Below are positions 14,988 through 63,699 of a stretch of DNA of 64,000 bases, one piece after another. The notes beneath the pieces are model-generated. The model was not told where the DNA came from. It did no database searches and saw nothing but the letters and a program-made list of their open reading frames with translations. A program made the translations under genes and the position numbers. The stretch lies in assembly GCF_040907265.1 (NCBI RefSeq), contig NZ_JBFOHP010000002.1, positions 7,316,001 to 7,380,000 on the forward strand. The letters run 5' to 3'. The stretch is from Streptomyces sclerotialus (GTDB lineage Bacteria > Actinomycetota > Actinomycetes > Streptomycetales > Streptomycetaceae). Within the stretch, counting starts at the first letter, position 1, and each line of letters starts with the position of its first letter.

Positions 14988-15085
14988 CACGGTGGGTCCG
15001 TTCCTCGTCGTTCCGTGGGTGATGCGGTGCGCTGTCGTGGGCGCCGTGCCGTTCGGCGTTCTCCGCGACGTCCTGCTGCTGCCCA

Positions 15086-17687: not shown

Positions 17688-18649
17688 GGCGCTGGTTCGG
17701 TACGGACTGTAGAGGCGAAGCCCGGCCGCACCAAGCCCAGGGCCTCCCGTGGGGGGAGGCCCTTCGAAGCGCCGATTCAACGAGGTCAGACACTTCGAAT
17801 GCCGCCACGTGACGTCCGGAGTGTTGATCTCATGCGACTAGAACGGTCGTCCAAAACGGGACAGGGCGGTCCCGCCGCCCCGGAGTACGCAGCGGCGGCA
17901 GGGCCAGGAGAGGGCTAGGGCGACGCAGGTGAGGGGCTGACCTGCAAAGCCGAGTTGTTCGTACCGGTGACATCGTGACGAGACCGAGCACGCAGAACCA
18001 CATGGAGGTGCCTGGCGGCTTCTCCCCGAACGCGGTCCGCACCTGGCGGCGGCGTTTCCTGCAGCCTGGCCCGGACGGTCTGGCTTACGACGCGGCACGG
18101 TGTCCAGCGCAAAATCACGGCCGCGAAAGGCTCTCGTCAAGACGTCGAAGAACGCCACTCGCTGATGCCTCATAGTCAAGACCTGGACACTGACTCAGAG
18201 ATATACCGGTCCCCTATGGAGCGACTGTTGCCGCAGTGGGCAGGTGCCGTCATCGCCGACGACTGGACTCAAGATGCTCACCTCAGTAGCAGAACAACAG
18301 CGGCAGGCCTGTCCGTCGGACGACAACATGGGTGGTCGGCTCCGCATGGCCGGAGAACGCCGAGGGCAGGGGAACATCACTTTCCTCGGCGACCCGCTGG
18401 TCCTGCTTAGATATGCGGACGGAACGATATGGCAGGTCCGGGGCATGATGCTCCTTTCAGAGCGGCCTGGCTCCGGACATGGAGCGGAAGTTCCTTCCCG
18501 GGCCGAAGGATCACTTCCTGCTGAGGGATTACGATCACTACACTGTAGGAGTGATTCGGCAGGGCCTATGCCGCTCGCGCCCTTCGTTGGCTGAGGTGTA
18601 GCGCACGCGCCGGGAAGACTGTGCTGTTGTTGGGGAGTCGGGGGATGCG
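17688..18649. other. Gene-poor left edge of the island
   Basis: No intact gene is recognisable. The stretch holds homology to copy B just after yjbQ, an IS630-like fragment near 18.02-18.11 kb, and short frames without family resemblance up to the kinase start. Confidence 0.6.
18017..18112 (+). mobile_element. IS630-type transposase fragment
   Basis: The frame reads GFSPNAVRTWRRRFLQPGP then DGLAYDAARC, which matches the helix-turn-helix of IS630 transposases (SVNTVRTWRxRFLxxGLDGL). Nothing of the DDE domain remains, so it is a relic. Confidence 0.55.
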
Positions 18650-19876
18650 GTGAACGACGGGACGTTACCGCGGCGTATCGGTCCTTATCTCGTCGAGCGG
18701 CGGCTCGGCGCGGGCGGGATGGGGGAGGTGTACCTCGCCTACTCCGTTGCGGGGGAACCGGTCGCTGTGAAGGTCATCCGACCCGACCGCACGGACCCGC
18801 ATACTCGTGCCCGTTTCGAGCGCGAGGCGGACCTCGCGCGTACCGTCTCAGGGACCGGTCGCGTAGCCCGTTTCATCGACGCGGACCCGTTTGCGGAGCA
18901 GCCTTGGCTGGCCATGGACTACGTCCCCGGACGTTCGCTCTCCGATGTCGTGGGGAACCACGGCCCCCTTGTCGCGCCACTCGTGGCGAGCCTCGGGGCG
19001 CTGTTGGCTGAAGGTCTCGCCGCCGTACATTCAGCGGGCCTGGTGCACCGGGACCTCAAGGCGCAGAACGTCATCCTGGGCGACTTCGGCCCAGTGATCA
19101 TCGACTTCGGACTCGGTGCCTTCCTCGGAGTCTCCAAGGGGTCGCTCACCCAGGCCGGCTCGGTCATCGGTACGGTGCGCTGCATGCCGCCCGAGCAGGC
19201 TTTGGGGGAGGCGGACGTGACGCAGGCCGCCGACGTATACGGTCTGGGCACGGTACTCCTGTACGCGGCGACCGGGCACTATCCGTACGACGGCGTCCGG
19301 TGGGAGGCGGTGGCCGCGCAGGTGGTCAACCCCGAGGTCGGCCCCGATCTGTCCGGGTTGCCCGACGAACTCGCTCCCGTCGTGACGTCGATGTTGGCGC
19401 ACAAGGCGGATGACCGCCCCTCCCTAGAGCGGGTGACCCGGCAGTTCGCCGATCTCATGCGGCTTCTGGGTACGAGTCCGGCTCGCGCACGACGGGCTCT
19501 GATCCAAGAGACGACGGCGAAGGATTACCCCACATCGGTGTTGCCGCAGCCGGATGCGCCGATGCTGGATCGGCTCGACTCGCTCGAGAGGTTGCTGCGT
19601 GAGGAATCGGCGTCGGAGAAGCGGTATCCACCAGTCCCGCCGACCATTGGTCAGCCGGGAACGGATGTTGTGGCCGCGACCGCCGTTGAGACTCGTACCC
19701 CGGCCGTACCCGAGTCCGGGCGTGGAGGGACGGTAGAGCCCGCACCGAAGCAGCTGGCCACTTCTTCGCCGTCTCCTGTGGCGAAACCGGGCCGCCCTCC
19801 CGCTTCCCGCCGGGTTGCCGAGGAGCTCCGCGAACGTTATGCGATGAGGCCTTCGCTCGCTTGGGCGAAGCGCTGA
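18650..19876 (+). CDS. Serine/threonine protein kinase associated with the defence operon
   Basis: 408 residues from GTG 18650 with a GGGGGA stretch upstream. The kinase domain (about 8-270) is complete: Gly loop LGAGGMGEVYLA, AVKVIRP lysine, catalytic HRDLKAQN (~131), IIDFGLG (~150) and PPEQ in the activation segment. The remaining ~140 residues are Pro/Ser-rich and end in a basic tail; no membrane helix or PASTA repeat is seen. It is soluble and lies 172 bp before four coupled DNA-acting genes on the same strand. Kinases occur in phage-defence loci (PglW, Stk2), so a signalling or activation role in this system is a reasonable inference, not shown. Confidence 0.88.
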   Translation: MNDGTLPRRIGPYLVERRLGAGGMGEVYLAYSVAGEPVAVKVIRPDRTDPHTRARFEREADLARTVSGTGRVARFIDADPFAEQPWLAMDYVPGRSLSDVVGNHGPLVAPLVASLGALLAEGLAAVHSAGLVHRDLKAQNVILGDFGPVIIDFGLGAFLGVSKGSLTQAGSVIGTVRCMPPEQALGEADVTQAADVYGLGTVLLYAATGHYPYDGVRWEAVAAQVVNPEVGPDLSGLPDELAPVVTSMLAHKADDRPSLERVTRQFADLMRLLGTSPARARRALIQETTAKDYPTSVLPQPDAPMLDRLDSLERLLREESASEKRYPPVPPTIGQPGTDVVAATAVETRTPAVPESGRGGTVEPAPKQLATSSPSPVAKPGRPPASRRVAEELRERYAMRPSLAWAKR

Positions 19877-20048
19877 ATCGCTGCCATCCTCGCTTCTTCC
19901 CGCCGACGCCCGGTCAGGCGCGGTACACAGACGAGGGATCGCCTTATCTCTCCAGTATCCGCCTTGGCGGCCATGGCCGCCGCAGACTTCCCCCTCTGCA
20001 CGAGCAGACTGTCCACCACGAGTACACAGTCCATCCAAGGAGCATCAC

Positions 20049-23000
20049 GTGACCTCGGCGAAGCAGCCCGAGATACCTGCAGCGGGCGCCGCCGACCCGG
20101 CGCGGTCGGGGTACCCGGCCGGCGTGAGGCCGGCTTTCGCTCCCGGCGCCCAGATACGTGTGCGCGATGAGCAGTGGCTCGTGAAGTCGGTCGCGGAAAC
20201 CTGCGACGGGCTCATGGTCGAGGCCAGTGGTGTGTCTTCGTTAGTCCGTGGCACGGACGCGGTCTTCTACTCCGGGCTCGACCAGATCGAGGTGCTCGAC
20301 CCACGTAAGACCCGGCTTGTGCCCGATAGAACCTCCAAGCACGCCAAAGCCCGCCTCTACCTCGAAGCGGTCATCCGCAAGACCGCGTTGCCGCAGACGG
20401 AGCACGGCATCGCGCTCGCCGACTCCTTCCTCATGGACCGGCAGGAGCATCAGCTGCGTCCAGCCGAGCTGGCGCTGTGCATGCGCAATCCGCAGCCCCG
20501 GTTGCTGATCGCCGACGTGGTCGGTCTGGGCAAGACGCTGGAGATCGGCATCACGCTCGCGGAGCTGATCCGTCGAGGGCGCGGCGAGCGCATCCTCGTG
20601 GTCACGCCCGCCCATGTGCTGGAGCAGTTCCAGCGTGAGCTGTGGACGCGCTTCTCCCTGCCACTGGTGCGCCTGGACGCCACCGGCATCCAACGCATCC
20701 AGCAGGAGATCCCGGCAGGCCGGAACCCGTTCGCCCACTTCAAGCGGGTCATCGTCTCCGTCGACACCCTCAAGTCAGCGACGTACGCCCACCACCTTGA
20801 GAACATCACCTGGGACGCGGTGGTCATCGACGAGTCGCACAACCTCGTGAACAAGGGCACCCGCAACAACCGGCTCGCCCGCCGCCTCGCCGAGCGCACG
20901 GATGCGCTGGTGCTGGCCTCCGCCACCCCGCACAACGGGGATGCCGAATCCTTCGCTGAGCTGATCCGGATGCTCGACCCGGCGGCGATCGCCGACCCCA
21001 AGAACTACAAGGTCGCCGACCTCGACCACCTCTACATCAGGCGGACAAAGACCGACCGCGAGGTACGTGACAGCCTCAAGGGCAAGCCCTGGGCCGAACG
21101 CGGTCCCTCCCTGCCCGTGCCGGCTCCGGCGACGCCGAAGGAGATCGCCGTCCTGGAGAAGCTCGCGAGCGAGTGGACCCCGGGGGACCTGAACCGTTCA
21201 TCGGTCTGCGCCGATCCGCTGGTCGGCTACAACTTCCTGAAGGCGTTCCTCTCCTCCCACGTCGCCCTGCGGAAATCCCTCGCCAGTCGCCGTGAGTATT
21301 TGGACAACCCGAAGCGGGGTACGGCGAAGGGCGGCAAGGTCAGGACCGCGGCGGACGACCCCGCCCGCCGCGCCGCTCTCGCCGCCGAGAGCAAGGCCCT
21401 CGCGGAGCTGGAGGCACTGGTCGCGGACTTCACCGACCAGGACTCCGCCAAACTCGCCGCGCTCGTCCGCACACTCAAGGACGACCTCGGCGTCGGACCG
21501 CTCTCCGAGCGCCGCGTCGTGATCTTCTCCGAGCGCGTCGACACCCTGGACTGGCTGGCCCAGGAGGTCCCGGCCCGCCTCGGCTTCAAGAAGAGGAATC
21601 AGGCCAAGCCAGACCCGACTCGCCCCTGGAAGGCGTACGACGGCGCCGTCGAGGTCATGCACGGTGACACCACCAACGACCAGCAGCAGCAGGAGATCGT
21701 CGACCGCTTCGGTCGGCGTGAGGAGCCGGTGCGGCTGCTGTTCACCGGTGACATCGCCTCCGAAGGCGTCAACCTGCACCACCAGTGCCACGACCTCATC
21801 CACTTCGACCTGCCCTGGTCCCTCATCCGCATCGAGCAGCGCAACGGACGCATCGACCGCTACGGGCAGGCGGTGAGTCCCGAGTTCCGCGCGCTCATCC
21901 TCACCGCCGACGTGCCCTGGCGGCGCGACGAGGAGACCGGCGAGATGCTCACGCTCGATGACCGGCTCGTCGGCACCCGTCTGCTGCGGCGCGAGGCCCA
22001 GGCGCACGAGATCGAGACCGGCGAGGGCAGCGCCGAGGCCGTCACCGGGCTTTACAACGACAAGAAGGAAGAGGACCGCCTCACCCGCGACCTCATTAAG
22101 GGCGGCACCGTCGAACGCTCTATCAAGCAGTCCCAACAAGAGTCCGGCGGTGTCCTCGCCGGACTCCTCGCCGGCGCCAATGCCCGGCTCGCCGACCCGA
22201 CGGCCGCTCCGGCCACCGTCGGCACGGCTCCGGTGCCCGAGGCCGACGTTCCCCATGTGTTCGCCGACACCAAAGCGTACTTCCAGGCCGCGGTGGATCT
22301 CATCTACCCACCGGCCGATCGCGAGGCCCTCGACTGGAAGCCCGAGACGGCGGGTGGCCGCATCGAGTTCACTCCGCCCGACGACCTGCAGTACCGCTTC
22401 CGGGAACTGCCGAAGTCGTACTTGGAGCAGGAGAAGATCCTCACCACCCCCAAGTACGAGGGCACGCTGCGTATCACCTTCGACAAGAAGTACGCCGCCG
22501 ACCGTCTGGAAGCTGCCCGCAACGCCAAGCAGGGCAAGACCGACCAACCCACCTCCCAGTGGCCGAACGTCTCCTACGTCTCCGACATCCACCCCGTGCT
22601 CGACTGGGTGACGGACAAGGTCCTGGCCAAGCTCCGCTACGACGAGGCGTTCGTCCTCGCCTACCGGCCTGACGCCAACAGGGCCAAACGGATCGACGCC
22701 TCCCTGCCCGCGGTCCTCACCGGCCCGGTCTACCTCCTCCAGGGCGTGTACTCCAACGTGGCGGGCAAGCCGACGGTCGTGGAGTGGATGGCCGTAACCG
22801 GCCTCGCCGAAGCCACTCCTCGTGTATGGCGCATGGACTCGGCATTCCTCGCCGCCTGCGGCGTCGGCCCCGACATGCCCGGCCGCGGTCGGCCCGTCGA
22901 CCCCGGCCTCCTCCAGGCCCTGGTCCCCGCAGCCGTCGACGTGGCCGAGACCCATCTGCGCGAGCGCCGCGCCGACTACGACAAGCAGGTCGACTCCTAC

Positions 23001-23228
23001 CTGGCCCCGTACGAGGACCGGGTGCACGTTTGGGAGCAGGGCGCCCTGATTGCCGTAGGCAACCAGGAGCGCCGCCGCCGGCAGGTGTACGACACCGCAG
23101 CACGCCGCCGCGAACTCGTACGCCGTCTGCGTACCGATGGTGACCCGATGCTGCGAGTCCTCGCCGTTCTCGAACCCCTCCACACCACTACCGTGTCCGC
23201 CACGCAGGCCGAGGAGTCCGCACGATGA
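20049..23228 (+). CDS. SNF2-family helicase, DrmD-like
   Basis: 1059 residues from GTG 20049 with AAGGAG 6 bp upstream. Motif I is IADVVGLGKTLEIGI (~155), motif II VVIDESHN (~258, DESH), and the second RecA lobe carries FTGDIASEGVNLHHQCHDL and IEQRNGRIDRYGQ (~595). This is the SNF2/RapA-like arrangement of DISARM DrmD, whose usual size is similar. It is probably an ATP-driven DNA translocase. The stop overlaps the methylase start (ATGA). The exact family assignment needs a profile search; a stand-alone SNF2 protein is the alternative. Confidence 0.85.
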   Translation: MTSAKQPEIPAAGAADPARSGYPAGVRPAFAPGAQIRVRDEQWLVKSVAETCDGLMVEASGVSSLVRGTDAVFYSGLDQIEVLDPRKTRLVPDRTSKHAKARLYLEAVIRKTALPQTEHGIALADSFLMDRQEHQLRPAELALCMRNPQPRLLIADVVGLGKTLEIGITLAELIRRGRGERILVVTPAHVLEQFQRELWTRFSLPLVRLDATGIQRIQQEIPAGRNPFAHFKRVIVSVDTLKSATYAHHLENITWDAVVIDESHNLVNKGTRNNRLARRLAERTDALVLASATPHNGDAESFAELIRMLDPAAIADPKNYKVADLDHLYIRRTKTDREVRDSLKGKPWAERGPSLPVPAPATPKEIAVLEKLASEWTPGDLNRSSVCADPLVGYNFLKAFLSSHVALRKSLASRREYLDNPKRGTAKGGKVRTAADDPARRAALAAESKALAELEALVADFTDQDSAKLAALVRTLKDDLGVGPLSERRVVIFSERVDTLDWLAQEVPARLGFKKRNQAKPDPTRPWKAYDGAVEVMHGDTTNDQQQQEIVDRFGRREEPVRLLFTGDIASEGVNLHHQCHDLIHFDLPWSLIRIEQRNGRIDRYGQAVSPEFRALILTADVPWRRDEETGEMLTLDDRLVGTRLLRREAQAHEIETGEGSAEAVTGLYNDKKEEDRLTRDLIKGGTVERSIKQSQQESGGVLAGLLAGANARLADPTAAPATVGTAPVPEADVPHVFADTKAYFQAAVDLIYPPADREALDWKPETAGGRIEFTPPDDLQYRFRELPKSYLEQEKILTTPKYEGTLRITFDKKYAADRLEAARNAKQGKTDQPTSQWPNVSYVSDIHPVLDWVTDKVLAKLRYDEAFVLAYRPDANRAKRIDASLPAVLTGPVYLLQGVYSNVAGKPTVVEWMAVTGLAEATPRVWRMDSAFLAACGVGPDMPGRGRPVDPGLLQALVPAAVDVAETHLRERRADYDKQVDSYLAPYEDRVHVWEQGALIAVGNQERRRRQVYDTAARRRELVRRLRTDGDPMLRVLAVLEPLHTTTVSATQAEESAR

Positions 23229-26200
23229 GCTACACCTACGACTCCTTTGCCAACCGCGGCGAATACCTCTCCGCCCACTACTTCAGCGAAGAGCTGGAGA
23301 ACACCCTCAAGAAGAGCAAGGCGGGAGAAGAGGGCCTGTTCACCCTCTGGACCAACCGCGAGACCGACCCGCACGACCCACGGCCCACCCCCCGCGAACT
23401 CCTCCCTCAGCTCCGCGGTGAGTACCAGGCCACCGTGCGCCCCTTCCTGGCCTCCCGCGCCAAGCAGGAGGGACTCAGCAGCACCTACGACGACCCGACG
23501 GGCAAGTGGGCCGAGCACCTCACCACCTGGCACACCGCCGTCCTCAAAGCCCTCGGTTACGGCGGCGACCGGCCCGAGCCGATCACCGTGCACAACGCGG
23601 GCAAGGACTACGAGCTCCAAACCGCCTGGCACGGAGACGGCATCATCGCCCTGGACTGCGGTTGGACTGACGGTCTCGACCACGCCCTCGACCCCGAGAA
23701 GGCAGGACGGCTCCTCCACCCCCTCAAGGCCGCCGACGGCCTCCTCGAAGTCGGCGAGAAGCTGACGGGCTGGCTGTTCCAGAGCGAGCTGCACGAGCCC
23801 GGCGGTGACGCACCCCGCTTCGTCCTGCTGCTCTGCGGCGGTGTGCTCGTCCTGGCCGACCGGGGTGCCTGGGCCGAGGGCCGCTATCTCGCTGCCAGCC
23901 TCGACACGGCGCTCGCCCGCAACGACACGGCGAAGGCAGGCGAACTCGCTCTGCTCGCCGCCATGTTCTCCCATGACATGCTCGCGCCCCGCCCGGACGG
24001 CAAGGGCCGACGCATCGACGACCTGCTCAAGGCGTCCCGCGACAACGCCGTCGGAGTCAACTCCGACTTGCGTAAGGGGCTCCAGCGCTCCGTCGAAATC
24101 ATCGCGAACGAGGTTCTGGTCCGTCTGCGTGAGGCGGACGTCGAGCCGCGGGAGATCGAGGACCCCAAGCAGGGCCCGTTCGCCAAGCAGCTCACCCGCG
24201 AATCGCTGCGCTACCTCTACCGCATCCTCTTCCTCCTGTACGCGGAGGCCCGCCCAGAACTGGGCATCCTGCCCGCTGACGACTCCACGTACGAGGCCGG
24301 CTACTCGATCGCCCGACTGCGCGAGCTGGTGGCGCGAGAGCGAAAGCTGGTCGACGAGGAGAGCTGCAAGGGCTTCCACCTCTACGCCTCCCTCGACGTC
24401 CTCTTCAACAAGATCAACTACGGCCACCGCCCGCACGGCACCGAACCGGACGACCACAAGCCCGCCGCCGAGCGCAGCGAGCGACGCGGCCTGCGTTTCG
24501 AGCCGCTGCGCAGCGAGCTGTTCGACCCGAAGGCCATCACCCTCATCGGCACCCGCGTCCTCGACCCCCGCTGGGACGAGGACGGGAACGAGGAGCCGCG
24601 GTGGCTGGACCTGCGCCTACGCAACGAGGCCCTGCACCAGGTGCTGCGTCTGCTCACCATGAAGGAGGCTGGCCAGAAGGGGAGACAGGGCGGCTTCATC
24701 TCCTACCGCAACCTCGGCATCAACCAGCTCGGAGCCGTCTACGAGGGTTTGATGTCCTACACCGGCATTATCGCCGAGGAGGAGCTGGCCGAGGTCGCCA
24801 AGCCCGGCGCGAAGAAGGGCGACAAGCAGTACGGCGACCCCGAGAAGGGCTCCTGGCTCATCCCCGCGGACCGGCTGAAGGACTACCGCGAGAACACGCA
24901 TGTCGTGTACTCCGCCCAGGACGCCGAGCAGTACGGCTTGCGCGGCCCGAAGAAGTACGCCCCGGGCACGTTCGTCTACCGCTTGGCCGGCCGTGACCGG
25001 GAAACCTCCGCGTCGTACTACACCCCTGAATCCCTCACGAAGGTCACCGTCGAGCTGGCGCTCAAGCACCGCCTCGACCAGGAGAAGGACGCGGACGGCA
25101 ACACCGTCCGGACGCGGGCGAGCAAGCTGTTGCGCTACACGATCTGCGAACCGGCCCTGGGCTCTGGTGCGTTCCTCAACGAGGCGATCAACCAGGTCGC
25201 CGAGGAGTACCTGAAGCGACGCCAGGAGGAACTGCGCGTCAGCCTGGACGCGTCGGAGACGCTCGACGCCAAGCAGAAGGTGAAGGCGTACATCGCCCTC
25301 CATAACGCGTACGGGATCGACCTGAACGCGACGGGTGTGGAGCTTGCCGAGGTTTCGCTGTGGCTGAACACCATGCACCCGGGCATGCGTGCGCCGTGGT
25401 TCGGACTGCACCTGCGGCGCGGCAACTCACTTATCGGCGCGCGGCGTTGGGTGTACGAGGCCGACCGCATCAAGAAGGAGCGGACCATCGGCGCGCAGAC
25501 ACCGACCAAGCTACCGTTCCGAGCGCCGGAGGACGGGGCGGAGCAGCCGCTGCCGGACGGGGCTGTGCATCAATTTCTTCTGTCCACGCCCGGGTGGGGT
25601 TCGGTCGCGGGGACGAGCGGCGATGCGAAGAAGCTGGTCGAGCAGCTCGCCGGGCCGCAGGTGGAGAAGCTGAAGGCGTGGAAGAAGAGCGTCCAGACCA
25701 AGCCCAAGACGACGGGCGGCAAGAACAGTCAGCTCGCCCGGTTGCAGGCTGCGGCTCGTCGGGTCGAGTTCCTGTGGCAGCTGGTCGCCAAGCGCATGGA
25801 ATTAAGCGAGCGAGAGATCGCCCGCACCATTGATGTGTGGGGTGCCGATCGTGAGGAGGATGCGGAGGAGTACGCCTTCCTCCGCTGCGACAAGCGGAAC
25901 GCCGAGCAGAGCTTGCCGCTGACCAAGGAGCAGGTCTTCAAGGACCTCTTCGAGGCGGAGGGCTCTCCATACTGGCGGCTCAAGCAGGTCATGGACGCGT
26001 GGTGTGCGCTGTGGTTCTGGCCGCTGGACAAGGTGGGGCTGCTGGACGGGTCGGATGCGGAGTACGGCACGGCACCGGTGGTGACGGCGCGGGCGGGTGC
26101 CGACCTGGATGCGTTGCTGTCGTCGGTGGCCGGGCAGGCCGTCAAGGTCGATCAGCCGCCTGTTCCTGAGCCGACACCCGCGCCTCGATTCGTCGAGAAC

Positions 26201-28714: not shown

Positions 28715-31700
28715 GACCGACCCTTGAAGCACAGGGACTCAAGGAGAGCCTCCTCCAGTACCTGTCCACGACGTACGGCCTCGCGGACGAGGGCGCCCGC
28801 AAGGCCCTGCACGCTTTTCTCGGGAACGAGAAGACAGGTATGTTCCGCGGCCCGTACCTCCGCCTGCGTACGCCCTTCACTCCGGCTGAGGATGGCTGGC
28901 AACAGCACCTGGACTGGGTACGTACCGACGGCTGGACACCGTACGCCCACCAGGCCCGCGCCTTCGCCCGGCTCACCTCGAAGGACGGCCACAACCCTCA
29001 GCCCACCCTCGTCACCACGGGCACGGGCTCCGGCAAGACCGAGTCGTTTCTCTACCCCGTACTCGACCACTGTGCCCGCGAGCGCGCCGCCGGGAACAAC
29101 GGGGTCAAGGCCGTCTTCCTCTACCCGATGAACGCCCTTGCCACGGACCAGGCGGCCCGCATCAACCAACTGCTCACCGACTACGACGAGTTAAGGGGCG
29201 TACGCGCGGGCCTGTACATCGGGGACAAGGCGGCGACGCACTACGACCGGGTCTACACCCGCCGCCAGGACATGCAGCTGTCCCCGCCGGACATCCTGAT
29301 CACCAACTACAAGATGCTCGACCTGCTCCTGCAGCGTGCCGCCGACGCGCCGCTGTGGGACGGCAGTGACATCCGATACGTGGTGGTCGACGAGTTCCAT
29401 ACGTACGACGGCGCGCAGGGCACCGACGTGGCCATGCTGCTGCGCCGCCTTGCTATCGCTGTTGGTGCCAACCAGTCCGGCAGGCCGCTCGGGACGATCA
29501 CTCCCGTCGCCACCTCCGCGACCCTCGCTTCAGGCACCGATGAAGACGGGGTGCGCCAACTCCTCCCGGTGGCCACCAACGTCTTCGGCGCCCAGTTCAC
29601 CGAGGACGCGATCGTTGGCGAGGAGCGGCTGACGGTCGACGAGTTCATGCTCGACGAGTCGATCCCGGATCCGAAGTTCCTTCCCGGCCAGGCCACGCCC
29701 CCTGAGACTCTGACCACCTTGCCGGACCCCGCATCCGGCCCCGAAGCGCTCGCCGACCTCGCCGAGGCCGTCACCGGAAGCCGCACCACCGAGCCGGTTG
29801 CCCTCGGTGCCGCGCTCAAGCGCAACCGGCTCACGTACGCGGTTCTGAACGCCTTCGACGGCACGGTGCGTACCTACGACGAGGTGCTCGACGTGATGCG
29901 CCGCAGTGGCGCGAAGAGCTGGGACGAGGCGATCACAACGCGGCCGCAGATCGCCGCCCTGGCGCTCGCCCGCTTCGTCGCTCTACTGTCCGTGGCGCGG
30001 GCCCCGGAGGCGCCGGCCGCGCTCAGCCGTCCCCTCGTTCAGGTCGAGGTGCATCAGTGGGCGCGGTCGGTCACGCGCATGCTGCGTGGTGTACTGCCGT
30101 GGCCGAAGGCCGAGTTCGCCTGGGATACCGCCGGCACGCAAAGACAGCTGCGCACGACGCCCGACACGACCACCTCGCGCGACACCAAGACCTTCCTGCC
30201 CGCGGTGTACTGCCGCGAGTGCGGGCGCTCCGGGTGGTCGGTCCTCGCTCCGGAGTCGGATCTGGAGGAGCTCAACTTCGAGGCGCACAAGATCCGCCGG
30301 GCCACGGTCACCGCCGAAAAGGCCAAGGTGCGTACGCTGGTGGCGGCCACCGACAGCGAGGCGCGTGAGGGCAACGGTCGTACCGCCATGGACCGGGCGG
30401 CGCAGAGGACGCTGACCACCGGCGGTGCGGGCGTGCTGATGGTGCTTGACGGGCTCTCTCGCCGCCTGCGTCTGCCCGACCCTCAGCACGATTACGACGA
30501 CGAGGGCAACCCGCAGCCCACCGGCCCCGACTCGGCCTTCGTCCTTGTCCAGCTCGGCGACACCGCGGAACGCGCCGCCAAGGACGACTGGTGCCCGGCG
30601 TGCGGCACGCACAACGCAATCCGCTTCCTCGGTACGGGTGCTGCCGCGCTCGCGGCCGCGTCCGTCACCCAGCTGTTCACCGGCGGGGAGATGGACAAGG
30701 AGCAGCGCGAGACGAAGACGCTGATGTTCAACGACTCGGTGCAGGATGCCGCGCACCGGGCCGGTTTCGTCGCCTCACGTTCGTACACCTTCTCCCTGCG
30801 GGCGCTGTTCACCAAGCGTCTCAGCGAGCAGCGGCCCAGTGCCCTCAACGACCTCGTCGCCGATGTCGTCGCGGCCACCACCGATCGTGAGACGCTCGCC
30901 GCTGTCGTCCCGCCGGACCTGCACGACGACACGGGTGTGGCGCGTCTGTTGTCGGGCAGGGGACGCGGCGGGGACAAGAAGACGTGGGACCTGATCGGTG
31001 AACGGTTCGCGTTCGAGGCCGTGATGGAGTTCGGCCACCGGTCCCGCAATGGCCGTACCCTCGAACTGACCCGCACCGCGGCCGCCTGGGTGGATCTCCC
31101 CGACGAGCGGGCGGCCGTGGCGCTCGTACGGGCCGCCCACGGGGAGTCCACGCAGCGCGGGTCGGCCTTCACCGAGCACGACGACCCCCGTTATCTGGCG
31201 TTCCTGCGCGGCCTGTTGGAACGGCTGCGTACTCGGGGGGCGATCGGACACCGGTGGCTGGAGAAGTTCCTCGACGAGGCGGGCACCAGCCGGTACTTCA
31301 TCTGGGGCGGCCGTCCGCGCGGTATGAAGGCCTTCCCCAAGGGTGTCTCCGCGCCGAGTTTCCTGCTTGCGCGGCCCAAGCAGAGCAGTGAGTTCGACTT
31401 CGCCGCCGGGCGACTGTCCTGGTACCAGACCTGGGCGCAGCGCTGCTTCGACATGACCCGCGAGCAGGCCGACGAGTTCTGGGTGCGGCTGCTGCCCCGG
31501 CTCATCGACGCCGGGCTGCTCGCGGCACGGACCCCACGGAACACGGCCGTCCGGCTCTACGGCCTGCAACCGGGCGCCATTCGCTTGCAGTTGTTGCCCG
31601 ATGCCCAGGTCAATGTGTCGTATGTGCGCTGCCCGAGGTGCTTCTGGGAGCAGACCGTCCATCCCTCGCTGCTGGCGCAGTATCACGGGCAGCCCTGTCA

Positions 31701-34700
31701 GGCGTACCGCTGCGCGAACGGTCGGCTGGTCGCGGGTGACCGGTGGCTGGAGACCGTCGACCGGCACGACAGGGACCGTGACTACCGCGACGACTACTAT
31801 CGCAGCCTGTACCGGCGGGCCGGCACCTACCAGGTCATCACCGCCGAGCACACCGGTCTGCTCTCCCGCGGCAAGCGGGAACGTGTCGAGGAGGCCTTTC
31901 GCGACGGCCAGGGCTTCAACGACCCCAATGTGCTGTCCTGCACGCCCACGCTGGAGATGGGCATCGACATCGGCGATCTGTCCGCCGTCGTCCTCGGAGC
32001 CCTGCCGCGTCGGCCGGCCAACTACGCCCAGCAGGCGGGCCGGGCCGGGCGCCGTACGGGTAACGCCTTCCTGCTGACGATCCCCGACCGTTCCCGCCGT
32101 GACCTCTACTTCCTGGACCGGCCGCGGGACATGATCGACGGGCGGATCGTGCCGCCCGGCTCGTACCTGTCGGCCATCGAGATCCTGCGTCGCCAGTACA
32201 CCGCCCACCTCCTTGACTTTGCGGCGCGCGGCCGACTGTTGCGCGAGGACGGCAAGCCGCTGGCCGCGCTGTCGCGCCGGGTCGACGAACTGTTCGGTCC
32301 CTCCGGCTACCTTGCCGACTTCACCGAGGCCGCCCTCGCCAATGGCGAGGAACTCGTCGAGGGCTTCCTCGCGCTGTTCCCGACCGGTGTGAGTGAGACT
32401 GCCAAGGAGGAGCTGAAGAAGTACGCGGTACGGGGCATCCGCAGCGCGATCGAGAAGGCCGAGCGGGAGTGGGAGCGCGAGAACCAGAAGCTGCGCACCC
32501 GTATCCGTACGATCCGCGCGGCGATCGACGAGCTCAAAGAAGGTGACGACGAACAGGCGCGCACAAAGGCGGAGTTGGAGGCCGAACTGGGCGCCCTCTC
32601 AAAGCAGGGCGCCGCGCGACAGCGTCAGCCCGCCCAGACCGTGCTGTGCGACCTCGGTCTGCTGCCCAACTACGCTCTCATCGACGCCACGACCACCCTC
32701 GATGCCACCGTCTTCTGGCCCGAGGGCACTACACCAGAAGGCCGGGTGCGCTACAAGTCGAAGTCGTTCTCCTACGGGCGTCCGCGCGGCTTCGCCCTGT
32801 CCGAACTCGCCCCCGGCAACACCTTCTACGCCGAGGGCTACAAGCACCGGATCACCGGCATCGACATCGTCACCGGTCGGGACCGGGACTGGCGCCACTG
32901 GCGCTTCTGCCCCTCGTGCGGCTACGTCCGCACCGAGGACGCCGAGAATGACATGTCACCCTGCCCGCGCTGCGGCGAGACGGGTATCGCCGACTCCGGC
33001 TGTCTCCGGCAGATCGTCCAGCCCAGCGTCGTGACGGCCCGCGACAAACGTGAGGACGCCAGGATCGGCGACGAGAGCGACGACCGCGACCGTCGCTTCT
33101 ACTCGGTCGTCGACATGGTCGACATCGCCCCCAAGGACTTCGTCCAGGGCAAGTCCTGGCGACACACCAAGGAAATCTTCGGCGTCGACTACACCCGCCG
33201 GGCCTTCATCCGCCGCGTCAACGCCGGGCCGCTCAGCATCGGCGCCCAGGAGAATGACCAGCTCGCCGGGCGGCCCGTGCGGATCGCGCCGTTCCATGTG
33301 TGCACCGCCTGCGGGGCGACGAGCGCCGACGGGCGGCCGGTCTTCGACGACGACCGCGACGCCGTGGACAACTCCGCCAACCGTCAGCGCGAACTCAAGC
33401 ACCACACCCCGTGGTGCCCGCTGCGGCGTGGCAAGAAGGGCGTACCCCAGGAACCCGTCCTGCTCGCTCACGAGCTGGAGACCGAGGCCCTGCGCATCCT
33501 GTTGCCTGCCGCGACTGTCCTCGTCGAGGAGAAGGTCCACTCTTTCCAGGCGGCCCTGCGCCTCGGCGTGAACGATGCCTTCGGTGGCGACCCGCAGCAC
33601 CTCGACAGCACCCTCGCCACCATGCCGGACCGCGACATAGTGGAGAAACGGCACTTTCTGGTGCTGTACGACCGTCTCCCGCACGGCACCGGCTACCTTG
33701 ACCGGCTCACCGACCCCGCGAACTTCCGGCAGGTGCTCGAAGGCGCGCGCCGGCTCCTCGTGGAGTGCCCCTGCAACGGGGAGGGCGGATCGGCCTGCCA
33801 CCGCTGTCTGTACCGCTACGCCGACGAACAGCACATCGAGCGCGTCTCCCGCCAGGCCGCCCTGGAGATCCTCGATGAGCTCCTCGGCACTGACACCGAC
33901 GCCTGGGCTACCAAGCCGGTCGGCAACACCGACCAGATCGGTCTCGACGGGCAGGTGGAGTCCGACCTTGAGGCACGCTTCCTCAGGGCCCTGCGCGGGT
34001 GGGCCGGACAGCGCGCCGACGCCGTTCTGGAGGAGAGCGGAGACAACAGCGCCTATCTGCGTCTGGACGAGGCCGGCACTGTGCACGGCTGGCGCCTGAC
34101 CGCTCAGCGTAACGAGGGGTACACCCGTACCGACTTCACCTTCGAACGCGCCGACGGCCCCAAACGAAAGATCACCGTCTACCTGGACGGACACCATTAC
34201 CACGCCACCCGCCGTCACAACCGGCTCGCCGGCGATGCCGACAAGCGCAACCGGCTCCGGGCCGAAGGGCGCGCCGTCTTCCAGCTGACCTGGGGCGATC
34301 TCGACGCCTTCGAGCGGCTGACGAACACGGCGGAGTCTTCCGCGGAGCGGGAGCCGGCCGAGCCGGTGTGGCCGCCGTATCCACGCAGTGCTCAGGATCT
34401 GGCCAAGCAGCTCTACGCCGAGCGTGGTGGCGAGGACCTCGCCGTCACCGCCTTCACCGACCCGATGAGCATGCTCCTCGCCTACCTGCGCAGCCCCGAC
34501 GACGGGGCCTGGGGCAAGCGGGCAGCGGCCGTGGTCGGAGGGCTTTTCGGGACCGAGAAAGAGATCCTCGTCGGCAGCGGCACTCCCGACCAGTCCCGCC
34601 GGATGCTCGACCACCTCCTCGGTGCCTGGGGACACACCGACGGAATCGACCCGGCACCCGAACAGGGCACGGGCACGCTCAACCTGTTCCAAACCTGCGA

Positions 34701-35418
34701 CCAGTCCGGTCTCCCTATAGCCTTCCTGGTCGACGGGACCACCGGCCACTGGTCTGCCCTGGCCTGCCTCGACGACAGCGAACCCGACCAGCTCGGCACA
34801 CCCGAACACAAGGCGCGCTGGCGCTCATGGCTCCAGTGGTCCAACGTCCTGCAGTTCCTTGCCCACGACGGAGGCGACGGCGTCCAGTTGACCACCACGA
34901 CCGCCGGCCGCTTCGACACCGCGACCCTCAAGGCCTTCGGCGGCCTCGGGGAACTCGAATCTCTCGTCGTGCGGTACGGCACCGGGACATCCGCACCGCA
35001 GTCCAAGCCCTCGGAGGCGTCCAACGACACGCCTCTCGAAGCGGCCTTGCGGGATCTGCTGTGGGACCGGGAGATCCTCGAATACCTCGACGAGGACGAA
35101 CCCGACGCCCCGCTCACCCGCCTCGCCCATGCACTGGCTGACGGCGGAAAGAAAGCCCCCGCATACGGCTACGAGCTCGGCCAACGCGGTTGGCTCGCCG
35201 ACTTCGCCTGGGACGACGGCGACCTGCGGATCGCTGTCATGGCCGAGCCGCACGACCAGGAGGACGACGAGAGCGACAAGACTTGGCGCGCCTACCGCGA
35301 CGCCGGATTTACTATCCGCTCGGCCGACGACTGGCTCGCCGATCTCGATGTTCTCCTCGCAACCCTCCCCGAGGCCACCGTCCGCCCCGACTCCGAAGAA
35401 CAGAGTGCCGCACAATGA
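28711..35418 (+). CDS. DEXH helicase with DUF1998 (DrmA-DrmB-like fusion) and predicted C-terminal nuclease
   Basis: 2235 residues from GTG 28711. The first helicase lobe has TTGTGSGKTES (~104) and VVVDEFHTYDG (~224). The second lobe has SCTPTLEMGIDIGDL (~1076) and YAQQAGRAGRRTGN (~1108), after a ~780-residue insertion. Cys pairs at ~1401 (CPSCGY, CPRCGE), ~1530 (CTACGA) and the ECPCNGEGGSACHRCLYRY cluster (~1686) mark the DUF1998/MrfA-type zinc module. Residues ~1751-1870 (LEARFLRAL, TDFTFERADG, ITVYLDGHHYH, KRNRLRAEG) look like a Vsr/DUF559-style PD-(D/E)xK nuclease. The end (~2170-2230) may be a degenerate relative. In DISARM the helicase and DUF1998 parts are separate genes. Confidence 0.82.
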   Translation: MRPTLEAQGLKESLLQYLSTTYGLADEGARKALHAFLGNEKTGMFRGPYLRLRTPFTPAEDGWQQHLDWVRTDGWTPYAHQARAFARLTSKDGHNPQPTLVTTGTGSGKTESFLYPVLDHCARERAAGNNGVKAVFLYPMNALATDQAARINQLLTDYDELRGVRAGLYIGDKAATHYDRVYTRRQDMQLSPPDILITNYKMLDLLLQRAADAPLWDGSDIRYVVVDEFHTYDGAQGTDVAMLLRRLAIAVGANQSGRPLGTITPVATSATLASGTDEDGVRQLLPVATNVFGAQFTEDAIVGEERLTVDEFMLDESIPDPKFLPGQATPPETLTTLPDPASGPEALADLAEAVTGSRTTEPVALGAALKRNRLTYAVLNAFDGTVRTYDEVLDVMRRSGAKSWDEAITTRPQIAALALARFVALLSVARAPEAPAALSRPLVQVEVHQWARSVTRMLRGVLPWPKAEFAWDTAGTQRQLRTTPDTTTSRDTKTFLPAVYCRECGRSGWSVLAPESDLEELNFEAHKIRRATVTAEKAKVRTLVAATDSEAREGNGRTAMDRAAQRTLTTGGAGVLMVLDGLSRRLRLPDPQHDYDDEGNPQPTGPDSAFVLVQLGDTAERAAKDDWCPACGTHNAIRFLGTGAAALAAASVTQLFTGGEMDKEQRETKTLMFNDSVQDAAHRAGFVASRSYTFSLRALFTKRLSEQRPSALNDLVADVVAATTDRETLAAVVPPDLHDDTGVARLLSGRGRGGDKKTWDLIGERFAFEAVMEFGHRSRNGRTLELTRTAAAWVDLPDERAAVALVRAAHGESTQRGSAFTEHDDPRYLAFLRGLLERLRTRGAIGHRWLEKFLDEAGTSRYFIWGGRPRGMKAFPKGVSAPSFLLARPKQSSEFDFAAGRLSWYQTWAQRCFDMTREQADEFWVRLLPRLIDAGLLAARTPRNTAVRLYGLQPGAIRLQLLPDAQVNVSYVRCPRCFWEQTVHPSLLAQYHGQPCQAYRCANGRLVAGDRWLETVDRHDRDRDYRDDYYRSLYRRAGTYQVITAEHTGLLSRGKRERVEEAFRDGQGFNDPNVLSCTPTLEMGIDIGDLSAVVLGALPRRPANYAQQAGRAGRRTGNAFLLTIPDRSRRDLYFLDRPRDMIDGRIVPPGSYLSAIEILRRQYTAHLLDFAARGRLLREDGKPLAALSRRVDELFGPSGYLADFTEAALANGEELVEGFLALFPTGVSETAKEELKKYAVRGIRSAIEKAEREWERENQKLRTRIRTIRAAIDELKEGDDEQARTKAELEAELGALSKQGAARQRQPAQTVLCDLGLLPNYALIDATTTLDATVFWPEGTTPEGRVRYKSKSFSYGRPRGFALSELAPGNTFYAEGYKHRITGIDIVTGRDRDWRHWRFCPSCGYVRTEDAENDMSPCPRCGETGIADSGCLRQIVQPSVVTARDKREDARIGDESDDRDRRFYSVVDMVDIAPKDFVQGKSWRHTKEIFGVDYTRRAFIRRVNAGPLSIGAQENDQLAGRPVRIAPFHVCTACGATSADGRPVFDDDRDAVDNSANRQRELKHHTPWCPLRRGKKGVPQEPVLLAHELETEALRILLPAATVLVEEKVHSFQAALRLGVNDAFGGDPQHLDSTLATMPDRDIVEKRHFLVLYDRLPHGTGYLDRLTDPANFRQVLEGARRLLVECPCNGEGGSACHRCLYRYADEQHIERVSRQAALEILDELLGTDTDAWATKPVGNTDQIGLDGQVESDLEARFLRALRGWAGQRADAVLEESGDNSAYLRLDEAGTVHGWRLTAQRNEGYTRTDFTFERADGPKRKITVYLDGHHYHATRRHNRLAGDADKRNRLRAEGRAVFQLTWGDLDAFERLTNTAESSAEREPAEPVWPPYPRSAQDLAKQLYAERGGEDLAVTAFTDPMSMLLAYLRSPDDGAWGKRAAAVVGGLFGTEKEILVGSGTPDQSRRMLDHLLGAWGHTDGIDPAPEQGTGTLNLFQTCDQSGLPIAFLVDGTTGHWSALACLDDSEPDQLGTPEHKARWRSWLQWSNVLQFLAHDGGDGVQLTTTTAGRFDTATLKAFGGLGELESLVVRYGTGTSAPQSKPSEASNDTPLEAALRDLLWDREILEYLDEDEPDAPLTRLAHALADGGKKAPAYGYELGQRGWLADFAWDDGDLRIAVMAEPHDQEDDESDKTWRAYRDAGFTIRSADDWLADLDVLLATLPEATVRPDSEEQSAAQ

Positions 35419-37724
35419 CCGCACGCCTCAGTCTCTACCAGAAGGCCGAAAACGAGCTCTACAAGATGGACTCGTCGGTCAAGACGAAGTTCTACGACTT
35501 CTGTCACCAGTTCCGCCTCGACCCCGATCACCCCAGCATCGATCTCAAGCCCCTGAAGGGCGACGGCCGTATTTTCCGCGCCAAGATCGACCGCTCGTAC
35601 CGGGCGCTTCTCGCCCGGGCCGGTGTCGGCGCCGACGGAGTGCAGCAATGGCTGATCGTCGCCGTCCGCCATCGCAAGGACGTTTACGAAGAGCTCAGCG
35701 TCGCCATCAACCGGATCACCGGTGAGATCGAGTTCGTCGACCTCGGCGTCGTCGGCCAGAGTGTCCTCCAGCGCGCGGGACTCCAGCTCACTCCGGCCCC
35801 GGACGGGCAAGCCGCACCGACGGAGCCCACGCGCGCGCCGGTTGTGTCGCAGGAACCGGCCGCCCCTGTCGAACCGCTCCTCGTCAGCTGCACCCCCGAG
35901 GACCTGCGCCGGCTGGGTGTCGCCGACGCCCTTATCGACCTCGCCCTCACCGTCACGACCGACGAGGAACTCGACCAGCTCATCGCCGGCGCCCCGCGCC
36001 TGACCGCCGAGGTCCTCACCGGGCTCGGCTCCGGCATGTCCGTCGACGAGGTCGAACGCGAGATCACCCAGCCCGCTTCCGCCGAGCTCGAGCCAGGCTT
36101 CGAGAACGACATGGCGGCGGCCCTCACCCGCACCGCGGTCACCACGGTCGACGACGACATCCGCAACGTCCTTGCCGAGGGCGACTTCCGCGCCTGGAAG
36201 GTCTATCTCCACCCCACCCAGCACAAGATCGTCGAACGTAATTACAGCGGCCCCGCCCGCGTCAGCGGCGGACCCGGAACCGGCAAAACCATCGTCGCCC
36301 TGCACCGCGTCGCCCGCCTCGCCGCTGCTCTGCCGCCCGGCCATGGCAAGCCGATCCTGCTGACCACATACACCAAGAACCTCACCGCCGACCTGCGCGC
36401 CCGGCTCACTTCCCTCATGGATTCAGCGCTGCTGGACCGTATCGACATCAAGCACATCGACCAACTCGCCCAGAGCGTCCTCAACGAGAACACCGCGCCC
36501 GGTTCCCAACGCAGCCTGATCACCGACGACAGGGCCCTGGGCGTGTTGCGCGAAGTCCTATTCGAACACGACGAGCATCGCTGGGACGGCGAGTTCCTCT
36601 TCGACGAATGGGAACAGATCATCCTCGGCCAGTCCCTCGCCACCCGCCAGGATTACTTCAAGGCCCGTCGCGCCGGCATGGGCCGTGCCCTCAACCGCCC
36701 CGAACGCGCTGCCGTCTGGAAACTGCTCGACCAGTTCACACTGCGCCTGAACGGACTGGGCCGCGAGACCTGGGCCCAGTCCGCCGAACGCGCGGCCCGC
36801 TACGAGATGGAACGCGCCCGCAAAATCCAACTCCGGGCCGAACGCAAGGAGGACATCGGCGGTGGCGACCTGTCCCACCTCGACGACAACAGCTCCGGGA
36901 TGCGCTACCTGCGTCACCGTTACCGGCACATCATCGTCGACGAGGCCCAGGATCTCAGCCCCGCCCACTGGAAGATGCTGCGCGCCATGGTCGCGCCCGG
37001 CCCGGACGACCTGTTCATCGCCAGCGACACGCACCAGCGGATCTACGACCGGCAGGTCACCCTCTCCACCGTCGGCATCAACATCCGCGGCCGCTCCTCG
37101 AAACTGACGCTCAGCTACCGCACCACCCAGGAGATCCTCGACCAGGCAGCCAAGGTCGTCCGCGGAGCCACCTACGACGACCTCGACGACGGCACCGACA
37201 GCCTGGAGGGCTACCACTCTCTGCTGCACGGCCCGGCCCCCGAGTACGTCGCCTGCGCCGACTGGACCGACGAGATTACCCAGCTCGCCGAGGCTCTCAA
37301 GCAGTGGCGCGCGGAAATCACCGAACCGGCCGAGGACGGCACAGCACGCGACCCCAGCGGCACCATGGCCGTGTGCGTCGCCGATGGCGAAATGGCCAGC
37401 CGCGTAGCCGCCGACCTGGAAATCAAGCACGGAATCACCACGGCGACCCTTACCAAAGACGGACCGCAGGGCGGCGGTGAAGTACACATCGGCACAATGC
37501 ACCGCTTCAAGGGCCTCGAGTACCAAAAGCTCGCCATCGTTGGGGCCAGCGATGGAATCCTCCCGCGCTCCGCCCTAACCGAGAAGTACGCGACGACCGA
37601 TCCCAAGCGCTACGAACGTGAGCTGAAGAAGAGCCGCAATCAGCTCTTTGTCGCCACTACCCGAGCCCGTGATGCGCTGCGCGTCTCCTGGCATGGCAGG
37701 CCTAGCCCGTTCCTACCTGTATAG
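35415..37724 (+). CDS. UvrD/Rep-type helicase with N-terminal RelE-like domain
   Basis: 769 residues from ATG 35415, overlapping the previous stop (ATGA); an open frame upstream lacks a good start. Residues 1-105 resemble the RelE/ParE toxin fold (LKGDGRIFRAKIDRSYRALL and WLIVAVRHRKDVYE). Residues ~260-769 are a superfamily-1 helicase: SGGPGTGKTIVALHR (~284), IIVDEAQDLSPAHW (~507), SDTHQRIYD, TLSYRTTQEIL, IGTMHRFKGLEY and FVATTRARDALRVSWHG. It is the last gene of the coupled run. UvrD helicases with such N-termini occur as single genes, but tight coupling here indicates a shared job. It could act as a 3'-5' helicase on invading or damaged DNA. Confidence 0.87.
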   Translation: MTARLSLYQKAENELYKMDSSVKTKFYDFCHQFRLDPDHPSIDLKPLKGDGRIFRAKIDRSYRALLARAGVGADGVQQWLIVAVRHRKDVYEELSVAINRITGEIEFVDLGVVGQSVLQRAGLQLTPAPDGQAAPTEPTRAPVVSQEPAAPVEPLLVSCTPEDLRRLGVADALIDLALTVTTDEELDQLIAGAPRLTAEVLTGLGSGMSVDEVEREITQPASAELEPGFENDMAAALTRTAVTTVDDDIRNVLAEGDFRAWKVYLHPTQHKIVERNYSGPARVSGGPGTGKTIVALHRVARLAAALPPGHGKPILLTTYTKNLTADLRARLTSLMDSALLDRIDIKHIDQLAQSVLNENTAPGSQRSLITDDRALGVLREVLFEHDEHRWDGEFLFDEWEQIILGQSLATRQDYFKARRAGMGRALNRPERAAVWKLLDQFTLRLNGLGRETWAQSAERAARYEMERARKIQLRAERKEDIGGGDLSHLDDNSSGMRYLRHRYRHIIVDEAQDLSPAHWKMLRAMVAPGPDDLFIASDTHQRIYDRQVTLSTVGINIRGRSSKLTLSYRTTQEILDQAAKVVRGATYDDLDDGTDSLEGYHSLLHGPAPEYVACADWTDEITQLAEALKQWRAEITEPAEDGTARDPSGTMAVCVADGEMASRVAADLEIKHGITTATLTKDGPQGGGEVHIGTMHRFKGLEYQKLAIVGASDGILPRSALTEKYATTDPKRYERELKKSRNQLFVATTRARDALRVSWHGRPSPFLPV

Positions 37725-38024: not shown

Positions 38025-38364
38025 CTTTCCGGTCTTCCGAGGAGCAGTTCTCCTGCGCATGATGCGAACCATGTGATGAGGGCGTGTCACGCCAGCGTGG
38101 ATGTGATCCCACAGGTGCGCCGGTGACGGTAAGCCATCGCGTCCCGCGTGCACGTCCGCGAGGACGCCTCGCGCACTGGCAACGTCTACGTCGGCTATTG
38201 CAGTCTCCTCCTGGCCAACACCAGCATCTGATTTCCCGGCGGTTACGCAACGCCCCGTCCGTGCCCCTCGCGCGCCCCCTGTGCGCACTTAGGTGGCCTG
38301 TTCGCCTCCAGCAGGCTGTGTCTACGGTGATCCACCGAGAGGCCACAGTCTGGAGGGGGACAAG

Positions 38365-60855: not shown

Positions 60856-61211
60856 GGCGTGTAACGGATCTGTGGCGTCGAACTACGACCATACCGAATA
60901 CCTCTCGGCCCATGTGTGATGAGCCCGTTAGTTTTTGTGCCTCTGGGCGCGGCGGGTGACGGAATCCGAAGAGCCCACGACCTCTTTGTCTTCCGAAGCA
61001 GCTCGGGGAACGTTATTACTTGGTCCGGTCGGCCCGTCACCTGCGCTGATGGGGCGTTGGTGTTCGTGGCTGTGCGCCGATGCGTGCCGACTTGTGACGC
61101 CGTTAGGCGCGCATCTGATGTGCCCTGTGGTGGCCCTGACCTTGTGATCCGTCGGATCTGGCACATTGTCGGGCGGGCGCGGGCCACCCCTTCGCAAACT
61201 TCCATGTCCAC
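60856..61211. other. Spacer before the STAND gene 3' end
   Basis: No gene or clear terminator recognised; base composition is less GC-rich than the core chromosome. Confidence 0.45.
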
Positions 61212-63221: not shown

Positions 63222-63396
63222 AACTTGGTGTCCCCCGATTCATGGCATACTTCCACGAAATGGAAAGCAGCCGCCAATTCCTCCTTCTAGGGCCTGGTCA
63301 TGGCATTTGTCAAGTTCTATTGTGGGTGCCAGCTAAAATGTCCCGTCGGTGATCTCGAATGCACTCGCTGACCTGCTCGTCTCTTGAAGCGAGGGC

Positions 63397-63606: not shown

Positions 63607-63699
63607 CGACTGGGACAGCCCACCAAGGACAGCAAGAGGTCGTCTGTCCGGACGGTCGCTCATGCCGCGGCGGCTCTTTCATGCGGGTCGCACATCGTC

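Follow-up and report, generated by a model that had tools for sequence, protein, structure and literature searches.

The closest described relative of the locus reported here is ARMADA, a phage-defence system presented by Bell et al. in a 2025 preprint (bioRxiv 2025.09.15.676423, PMC12458937), according to the main text of which it comprises the two largest groups among the uncharacterised YprA-helicase groups. In ARMADA type II the gene order is strict, with a BrxHII/RapA-like helicase (ArmA) followed by a PglX-like methylase (ArmB), a YprA-like helicase (ArmC) fused to a C-terminal Vsr-type nuclease, and a GajB-like helicase (ArmD) with a RelE-like start; helicase inserts include BrxA-like, MarR-like and extra zinc modules. 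The cloned E. coli ARMADA II protected against 13 of 80 phages, all four genes being necessary; the defence is direct and non-abortive, and infected cells stayed intact, although the highest phage doses did bring lysis. Eight residues were mutated (ArmA K136 and D236, ArmB N971 and G605, ArmC K110 and D234, ArmD K266 and D454); six of these mutations abolish protection, whilst those at D454 and G605 weaken it (PMC12458937). Here we describe a five-gene operon of Streptomyces sclerotialus (genome of 8.28 Mb in two contigs), located in a stretch of 64,000 nucleotides (C2:7316001-7380000) that we call the window. Its last four genes are, by sequence, ARMADA type II, and its first encodes a Ser/Thr protein kinase. 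We consider it highly probable that the operon is the ARMADA type II of a kinase-bearing actinomycete lineage and that the kinase is one of its components. Its action against phages we infer from the E. coli homologue.

ARMADA type II genes in Streptomyces sclerotialus

The operon comprises five genes on the + strand in the order kinase-ArmA-ArmB-ArmC-ArmD (Table 1). Overlaps of 4 bp link genes 2-3, 3-4 and 4-5, whilst the kinase gene has no such overlap and its stop codon lies 172 bp before gene 2. The ArmD ORF as listed begins at a TTG at 35190, but the ArmD proteins of relatives align to the ATG at 35415, within the overlap with the ArmC gene, which is therefore likely the true start. The entire array is kept in dozens of genomes, and chance is therefore excluded; the nearest named relatives of ArmB are mostly from Streptomyces, with some from Kitasatospora, Actinomadura and other actinomycetes. 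A scan of 17700-20100 for promoters and terminators, using only the sigma-70 consensus, found none.

Table 1. Features of the operon, with positions counted from the first letter of the window
Feature	Position	Strand	Length and notable residues or domains
Ser/Thr protein kinase (provisional name ArmK)	18650..19876	+	408 aa; soluble (predicted); Pkinase
ArmA, RapA/BrxHII-like SNF2-type ATPase	20049..23228	+	1059 aa; Walker K162, D261
ArmB, PglX-like adenine methyltransferase	23225..28714	+	1829 aa; SAM motif G646, NPPW N1141
ArmC, YprA-family DEXH helicase with DUF1998/MZB domain	28711..35418	+	2235 aa; Walker K109, D227
ArmC C-terminal part (residues 1690-2235), putative PD-(D/E)xK/Vsr-like nuclease-type domain	33778..35418	+	
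ArmD, RelE-like domain (about 1-100) and GajB/UvrD-like helicase	35415..37724	+	769 aa; Walker K291, D509

Each of the four Arm proteins was compared with Pfam, NCBIfam and PADLOC models, the PADLOC results for three of the five operon proteins being those among the matches listed. ArmA carries SNF2 and Helicase_C domains, has RapA as its closest solved relatives and finds its best PADLOC family in DrmD (265 bits); against the NCBIfam DrmD model it scores 286.9 bits, below the cut-off of 610. ArmB has an Eco57I-type methylase domain, with the NPPW motif read in the sequence, and matches the PADLOC model PDLC03611 'REase_MTase_IIG' best (838 bits) and DrmMI at 178 bits. We read the PADLOC name 'Type IIG restriction enzyme-methyltransferase' as a label that PADLOC gives to ArmB-like proteins and draw from it no evidence for a type IIG enzyme. 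ArmC contains DEAD, Helicase_C and MZB domains, the last a DUF1998-type zinc domain at residues 1613-1700, and is assigned by PADLOC to DruE (312.6 bits), with DrmA at no more than 46.6 bits. ArmD has a UvrD domain and its best PADLOC family is GajB (91 bits).

The order of genes 2-5 is that published for ARMADA type II. For comparison with E. coli we used the locus on plasmid pYLPD7b (L075), which was recognised by its gene order and does not come from the strains of the preprint; its residues agree with the mutant numbering given in the main text of PMC12458937. The Arm proteins of the window share 29-33% identity with these homologues, and all eight of the residues mutated in E. coli are identical in the window (numbered with each protein in Table 1). 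ArmC aligns with the E. coli plasmid ArmC at 668 bits (30% identity over 1910 aa), against 64 bits for the DruE3 of pYLPD7b and at most 35.4 bits for four DrmA proteins. PADLOC also labels the E. coli ArmC 'DruE' (348.5 bits), whereas the DruE3-like ORF adjoining that ARMADA scores 1702 bits, and the label is therefore best read as how ARMADA appears to PADLOC. In a helicase tree of 18 rows, 13 ArmC rows fell on one side, with modest support of 63/84 against the single, long-branched DruE row, and the DrmA rows were separate with support of 100/100.

Residues E1754, D1808, G1827, H1831, D1842, R1846 and D1863 of ArmC are unchanged in 63 relatives, and the C-terminus appears to hold a PD-(D/E)xK/Vsr-like nuclease-type domain followed by further domains, the last one nuclease-like. 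A structure prediction of the C-terminal 546 residues gave no Foldseek match under an E-value of 0.001, and a search of the PDB with a sequence profile of this region found nothing better than an engineered protein at 0.008. The closest solved relative of ArmC by sequence is PDB 9tu7 with five sister entries, a 2108-aa 'DEAD/DEAH box helicase' (152 bits). For the start of ArmD, single-sequence searches returned ParE_like weakly (E = 0.076-0.12; Pfam E = 0.12) and a PDB search with the N-terminus alone led nowhere. A profile built from 18 ArmD starts reached two YoeB sequences at about 0.001, as well as 1wmi (0.0006) and 2khe (0.0016), both of which we take to be of the RelE family; PDB entries named RelE appeared only at E 0.4 and 0.94. 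This profile supports a RelE-like domain in the N-terminal part of ArmD, a feature of ARMADA type II.

An earlier note on this DNA had described a kinase-linked, DISARM-derived operon with a new gene set, in which drmA and drmB were joined in one polypeptide, and much of its description stands. All five genes are real and lie where it placed them, as seen in the ORF list and Pfam domains, and the coupling of four of them by 4-bp overlaps is borne out. Pfam likewise agrees with an SNF2 helicase, an 1829-aa adenine methylase, a 2235-aa protein fusing a helicase (DEAD) to a DUF1998-type domain (MZB), and a UvrD helicase. The RelE-like half of that last protein, weak in the single sequence, gained its support from the 18-start profile. 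The note was also right that the genes form a coherent operon of defence type, akin to DISARM, that a probable nuclease-like domain is fused to the helicase, and that the kinase belongs to the operon, all five genes co-occurring in one actinomycete lineage (see below). A class 1 DISARM variant with fused drmA-drmB is nonetheless very improbable. Such a variant would accommodate DrmD as the best PADLOC family of ArmA and the DrmMI match of ArmB, but the first falls below the NCBIfam cut-off. ArmC is DruE-like, its 668 bits to ArmC standing against the DrmA scores given above, and no DrmB model occurs among its 23 PADLOC families. DrmC and the PLD domain, whose absence the note had recorded, have no match in the five proteins in Pfam or among the PADLOC matches listed. 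True DrmA and DrmB pairs, moreover, adjoin other ARMADA loci as separate genes. We therefore rejected DISARM membership, and genes 2-5 form the published ARMADA type II set in place of a new one. Druantia was rejected in turn on the DruE and DruE3 scores of ArmC (312.6 bits against 1702 for the DruE3-like ORF, and 64 bits, respectively); DruH has no match listed for the five operon proteins or for three downstream proteins.

The kinase gene and its linkage to ARMADA

The window kinase matches Pfam Pkinase at 112.6 bits, and its best NCBIfam models are of AfsK and PknB type, with scores below their cut-offs. ArmB was used as a query to collect 40 loci in genome contigs, and in 38 of them a kinase match was found upstream of, and on the same strand as, ArmA. 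One of the 38 (L059) is without the standard HRD motif; the contigs of the two others (L047 and L068) do not reach the kinase position. A family sample of 297 Streptomycetaceae genomes contained ArmB-like genes in about 45, from which 48 places besides the window were fetched after exclusion of short fragments (such as G132, G005 and G080). The kinase was present in 44 of these, the remainder being two contig edges (L114, L130) and two places where an ArmB-like gene occurs without ArmA (L143, L144). In the latter two, the ArmB-like genes are at 46% identity, ArmA and the kinase were not found in the 8 kb upstream, and the same genomes carry kinase-ArmA-ArmB elsewhere (L133, L128). Two genomes, G446 (L150, L153) and G590 (L157, L158), each have two separate kinase-bearing ARMADA loci. 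Outside Streptomycetaceae, in a class sample of 394 genomes, 14 of the 30 places fetched (short fragments again excluded) had the kinase.

There were 32 plasmid records with an ArmA match, eight of which were opened. The ARMADA on a Streptomyces cellulosae plasmid has the kinase, and those in the opened records of Mycobacterium, Tsukamurella, Microvirga, E. coli, Haematobacter and Cylindrospermopsis do not. In Microvirga the record is circular and opens with ArmA, so that locus L074 stops short of the upstream side; the final 10 kb of the record contain no annotated kinase. A Rhodococcus plasmid holds an ArmA fragment only, which was too short to enter the tree; a kinase-like ORF lies 1.4 kb from it.

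Mapping the kinase onto an ArmA phylogeny revealed a sharp border. Of 120 rows in which ArmA exceeded 850 aa, 112 were distinct and entered the tree; the kinase was present in 88 and absent from 22, and two were cut (L068, L130). Here and in later counts, a kinase ORF is 'upstream' when it is on the strand of ArmA and its end is no more than 700 bp from the start of the ArmA ORF. By this definition all 88 testable members of one clade, and none of the 22 others, have the kinase directly upstream, so that its presence amounts to a single change on the tree once the cut rows are set aside, and no loss was seen among the 88. The clade (88 plus the two cut rows) has an SH-aLRT support of 96 and a total branch length of 17.35 substitutions per site; the search behind the tree was quick and the outsiders have long branches, so that the split itself is surer than the exact border of the clade. 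Path distances of the kinase and ArmA across the 88 loci correlate at r = 0.928, against at most 0.16 in 2000 permutations, although shared species history alone would give some correlation. When the kinases were placed in a tree with 23 other kinases of the window genome, from which six further matches without the motif used for trimming had been dropped, the ARMADA kinases needed two changes, of which well-supported branches force one.

A search of 30 genomes, 10 with ARMADA (that of the window included) and 20 without, returned as its ten best matches the kinases at the ten ARMADA loci (263-891 bits). The next best scored 219 bits over the kinase domain only and was the top match of the 20 genomes lacking ARMADA. 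The window genome has 30 Pkinase matches, 29 of them over the cut-off, and with such a number per genome a kinase beside any given gene is a rare event. Locus counts, the ArmA tree, the 30-genome search and the unshared neighbours described below together rule out the kinase as a chance neighbour. The kinase is thus very probably a dedicated component, acquired once by the lineage and seemingly fixed in it, loss not having been seen.

The kinase domain spans about residues 8-275 and is followed by extra helices at 277-288 and 303-323 and then by a disordered Pro-rich linker. K41, D135 and D152 are conserved at 98% or more across 88 rows, and no convincing membrane helix was present (one of the 88 rows passes 2.0 on the hydropathy scale); the kinase is therefore predicted to be soluble, with its catalytic residues kept. 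In the structure prediction (mean pLDDT 83.6, pTM 0.76) the Pro-rich stretch has low confidence, and a C-terminal helix at 385-398 reaches a pLDDT of about 80. This helix contains the motif A390-x-x-L393-R394-x-x-Y397-A398, with R394 present in 88 of 88 aligned rows and Y397 in 97%. Of 98 kinases, 90 had the pattern A-x-x-[LI]-R-x-x-Y-A within their last 40 residues, compared with one of 4992 other mechanical ORFs of the loci; that one overlaps the L070 kinase ORF at its end, in a different frame, and so represents a kinase tail out of frame. The pattern was found in none of 21 other kinase frames of the window genome. The eight kinases without it include the deepest branch (L145-L147). Because the motif was found after the kinases had been collected, these counts describe conservation and cannot serve as an independent test. 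Docking peptides commonly take the form of a flexible linker that ends in a conserved helix, and the helix is probably, by analogy, such a peptide.

Boundaries and neighbours of the operon

Flanking genes were rarely shared between loci. In the approximately 3.2 kb upstream of the kinase, the commonest gene family was found in 9 of 82 loci and the next in 4 of 82 (genes here were called by codon-position G+C, which may overlook some). In the window and 14 kinase-bearing relatives, no family downstream of ArmD was common to more than two of the 15 loci. The conserved unit is therefore kinase-ArmA-ArmB-ArmC-ArmD. Directly behind the operon of the window, at 38293-41832 on the + strand, lies a gene for a type ISP/IIG restriction-modification enzyme of 1179 aa (Type_ISP_C 234 bits; PADLOC IIG 884 bits), which was considered as a sixth component and rejected, being present in none of the 14 relatives. 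Further along, 61000-64000 has a G+C of 0.60, compared with about 0.65-0.75 across most of the window, and contains a 669-aa ORF on the minus strand.

The unit is not always uninterrupted. We extended 20 kinase-bearing loci in which ArmC did not directly follow ArmB (first halves L118, L121-L129, L131-L139 and L141, with the next 20 kb as L210-L229), picked from a larger group to which, for example, L115, L140, L142, L148 and L163 also belong. ArmC was still downstream on the same strand in all 20, after a variable insert of 4.3-22.6 kb, and ArmD was reached in 17, the other three stretches ending before it. The 98 ORFs scanned between ArmB and ArmC included HEC-01, NsnA/B, AriA-type ATPases, GmrSD, caspase-like and nSTAND genes, so the inserts, judged from their gene content, are a defence island nested within the ARMADA operon.

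Loci without the kinase showed other neighbours. There were 18 such actinomycete ARMADA loci, and the upstream genes of six were scanned: a separate DrmA and DrmB pair stands just before ArmA in five (L073, L166, L167, L169, L172), whilst the sixth (L164) has a large RecD-like/PDC-S68 protein upstream. By these matches, the five are ARMADA joined to a DISARM helicase pair. On pYLPD7b, a long DruE3-like ORF (L075:4987-10449; 1702 bits), missing from the gene table, precedes ARMADA II and would be a plasmid case of the chromosomal pairing of Druantia III with ARMADA II described in the main text of PMC12458937. The Haematobacter plasmid (L076) has a WYL-domain gene (15046-15906) just upstream of ArmA and, between ArmB and ArmC, an unnamed gene (23876-24724) coding for about 282 aa. 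The slot upstream of ArmA may hold lineage-specific regulators.

Possible role of the kinase and comparison with known systems

In the working that we propose, ArmB would mark or inspect host adenines, whilst phage DNA without marks would be remodelled and destroyed by ArmA, ArmC and ArmD; the cutting ascribed to DrmC in DISARM would fall to the nuclease-like end of ArmC. The kinase most likely acts on an Arm protein. Its substrate, docking and direction of control are what we infer here: tethered to an Arm protein by its flexible tail and conserved C-terminal helix, it would phosphorylate a component, and phosphorylation would set whether the system modifies or restricts. Lineage-specific segments were sought in the four Arm proteins; short ones were found in ArmB, ArmC and ArmD and none in ArmA. 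ArmB gained most length in the kinase lineage (median 1833 aa in 83 rows vs 1596 in 19 rows), partly in a Ser-rich basic linker, and our best guess at a substrate is this linker, near residues 943-1041. This tethered mechanism, whereby a docked kinase switches a methylase-helicase-nuclease machine between marking and destroying DNA, is tentative, and we put its chances close to, but short of, even.

Two other roles were weighed against it. The kinase could be a transcriptional or sensory switch only, which responds to stress or infection and, leaving the Arm proteins themselves alone, turns on the arm genes via a separate regulator, in the manner of CapK and CapS. Its gene comes first and is separated from armA by a spacer, a WYL gene takes the upstream slot in the Haematobacter system, and kinase-based operon switches do exist, CapK/CapS being reported upstream of other immune operons (PMC13373217). 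We still regard this role as rather unlikely: even the commonest upstream family (9 of 82 loci) is far from a widely shared partner, the best kinase models are AfsK/PknB-type Ser/Thr rather than the anti-sigma type that CapK is reported to resemble (PMC13373217), and the conservation of the tail motif points to a partner protein within the system. Alternatively, the kinase could travel with ARMADA without acting on it, as a guard that counters the protein kinases of phages or as a defence in its own right like PD-T4-6. Its best PADLOC score is indeed to PD-T4-6 kinase models (190.6 bits), and there are reports of phage kinases weakening defences that target DNA (PMC12904381). The matching PD-T4-6 models are, however, many and varied, as the kinase fold alone would presumably predict; a stand-alone gene would be expected without ARMADA, yet none was seen in the 20 genomes lacking it, and occasional loss would be expected where there was none in 88. 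This role is accordingly improbable. The tethered kinase remains our preferred reading, and a dedicated kinase suggests that ARMADA-type immunity can be controlled by phosphorylation.

A dedicated kinase kept across a deep actinomycete lineage offers a direct handle on the control of ARMADA, to which the tail motif, almost confined to these kinases among the loci examined, adds. No other immune system built on a YprA helicase is known to us to be controlled by a protein kinase. The words 'kinase', 'Streptomyces', 'phosphoryl' and 'STK' do not occur in the main text of PMC12458937, whose supplements or figures may show a kinase, and term searches of the papers found on ARMADA connect it with no kinase. 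As far as these searches reach, and those supplements and figures aside, the fixed kinase, the sharp phylogenetic border and the tail motif are new. Since PADLOC labels the parts separately (DrmD, type IIG, DruE, GajB, PD-T4-6), such loci may be scattered over several survey labels.

The gene set of class 1 DISARM includes, to our knowledge, no kinase. DISARM resembles the operon in its SNF2/RapA-like and PglX-like proteins and in a YprA-family helicase with a DUF1998 module, but has separate DrmA and DrmB and typically the PLD nuclease DrmC (main text of PMC12458937). With ARMADA type II the operon shares the four families and their order, the eight mutated residues, the RelE-GajB fusion and, probably, the nuclease-like helicase C-terminus; it differs in its upstream Ser/Thr kinase, which is not in the tested four-gene E. 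coli cluster (PMC12458937), and in ArmB, whose median length is greater by about 240 aa in the kinase lineage. Druantia type III (DruH-DruE) has a helicase of the same sub-branch (PMC12458937), as the PADLOC label 'DruE' of ArmC also reflects, but is reported as a two-gene system (PMC13316683), and ArmC scores only 64 bits to E. coli DruE3. MADS, going by its family names, likewise combines a methylase (MAD2) with a Ser/Thr kinase (MAD6). The MAD6 profile matches the window kinase at 166.7 bits in PADLOC and 109 bits in NCBIfam (cut-off 460), which reflects the general kinase fold, and the remaining MADS components differ from those of the operon. BREX type 2/Pgl places a Ser/Thr kinase (PglW) beside a PglX-like methylase in Streptomyces. 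PglW, however, is described as a multidomain protein of 1400-1600 aa with its own nuclease domain (PMC12839542), in contrast to the small, single-domain kinase of the window, and neither PglZ nor BrxC was matched by the five proteins among the PADLOC, Pfam and NCBIfam matches listed. The ARMADA kinase would be an independent instance, also from Streptomyces, of the pairing of a kinase with a PglX methylase that Pgl shows.

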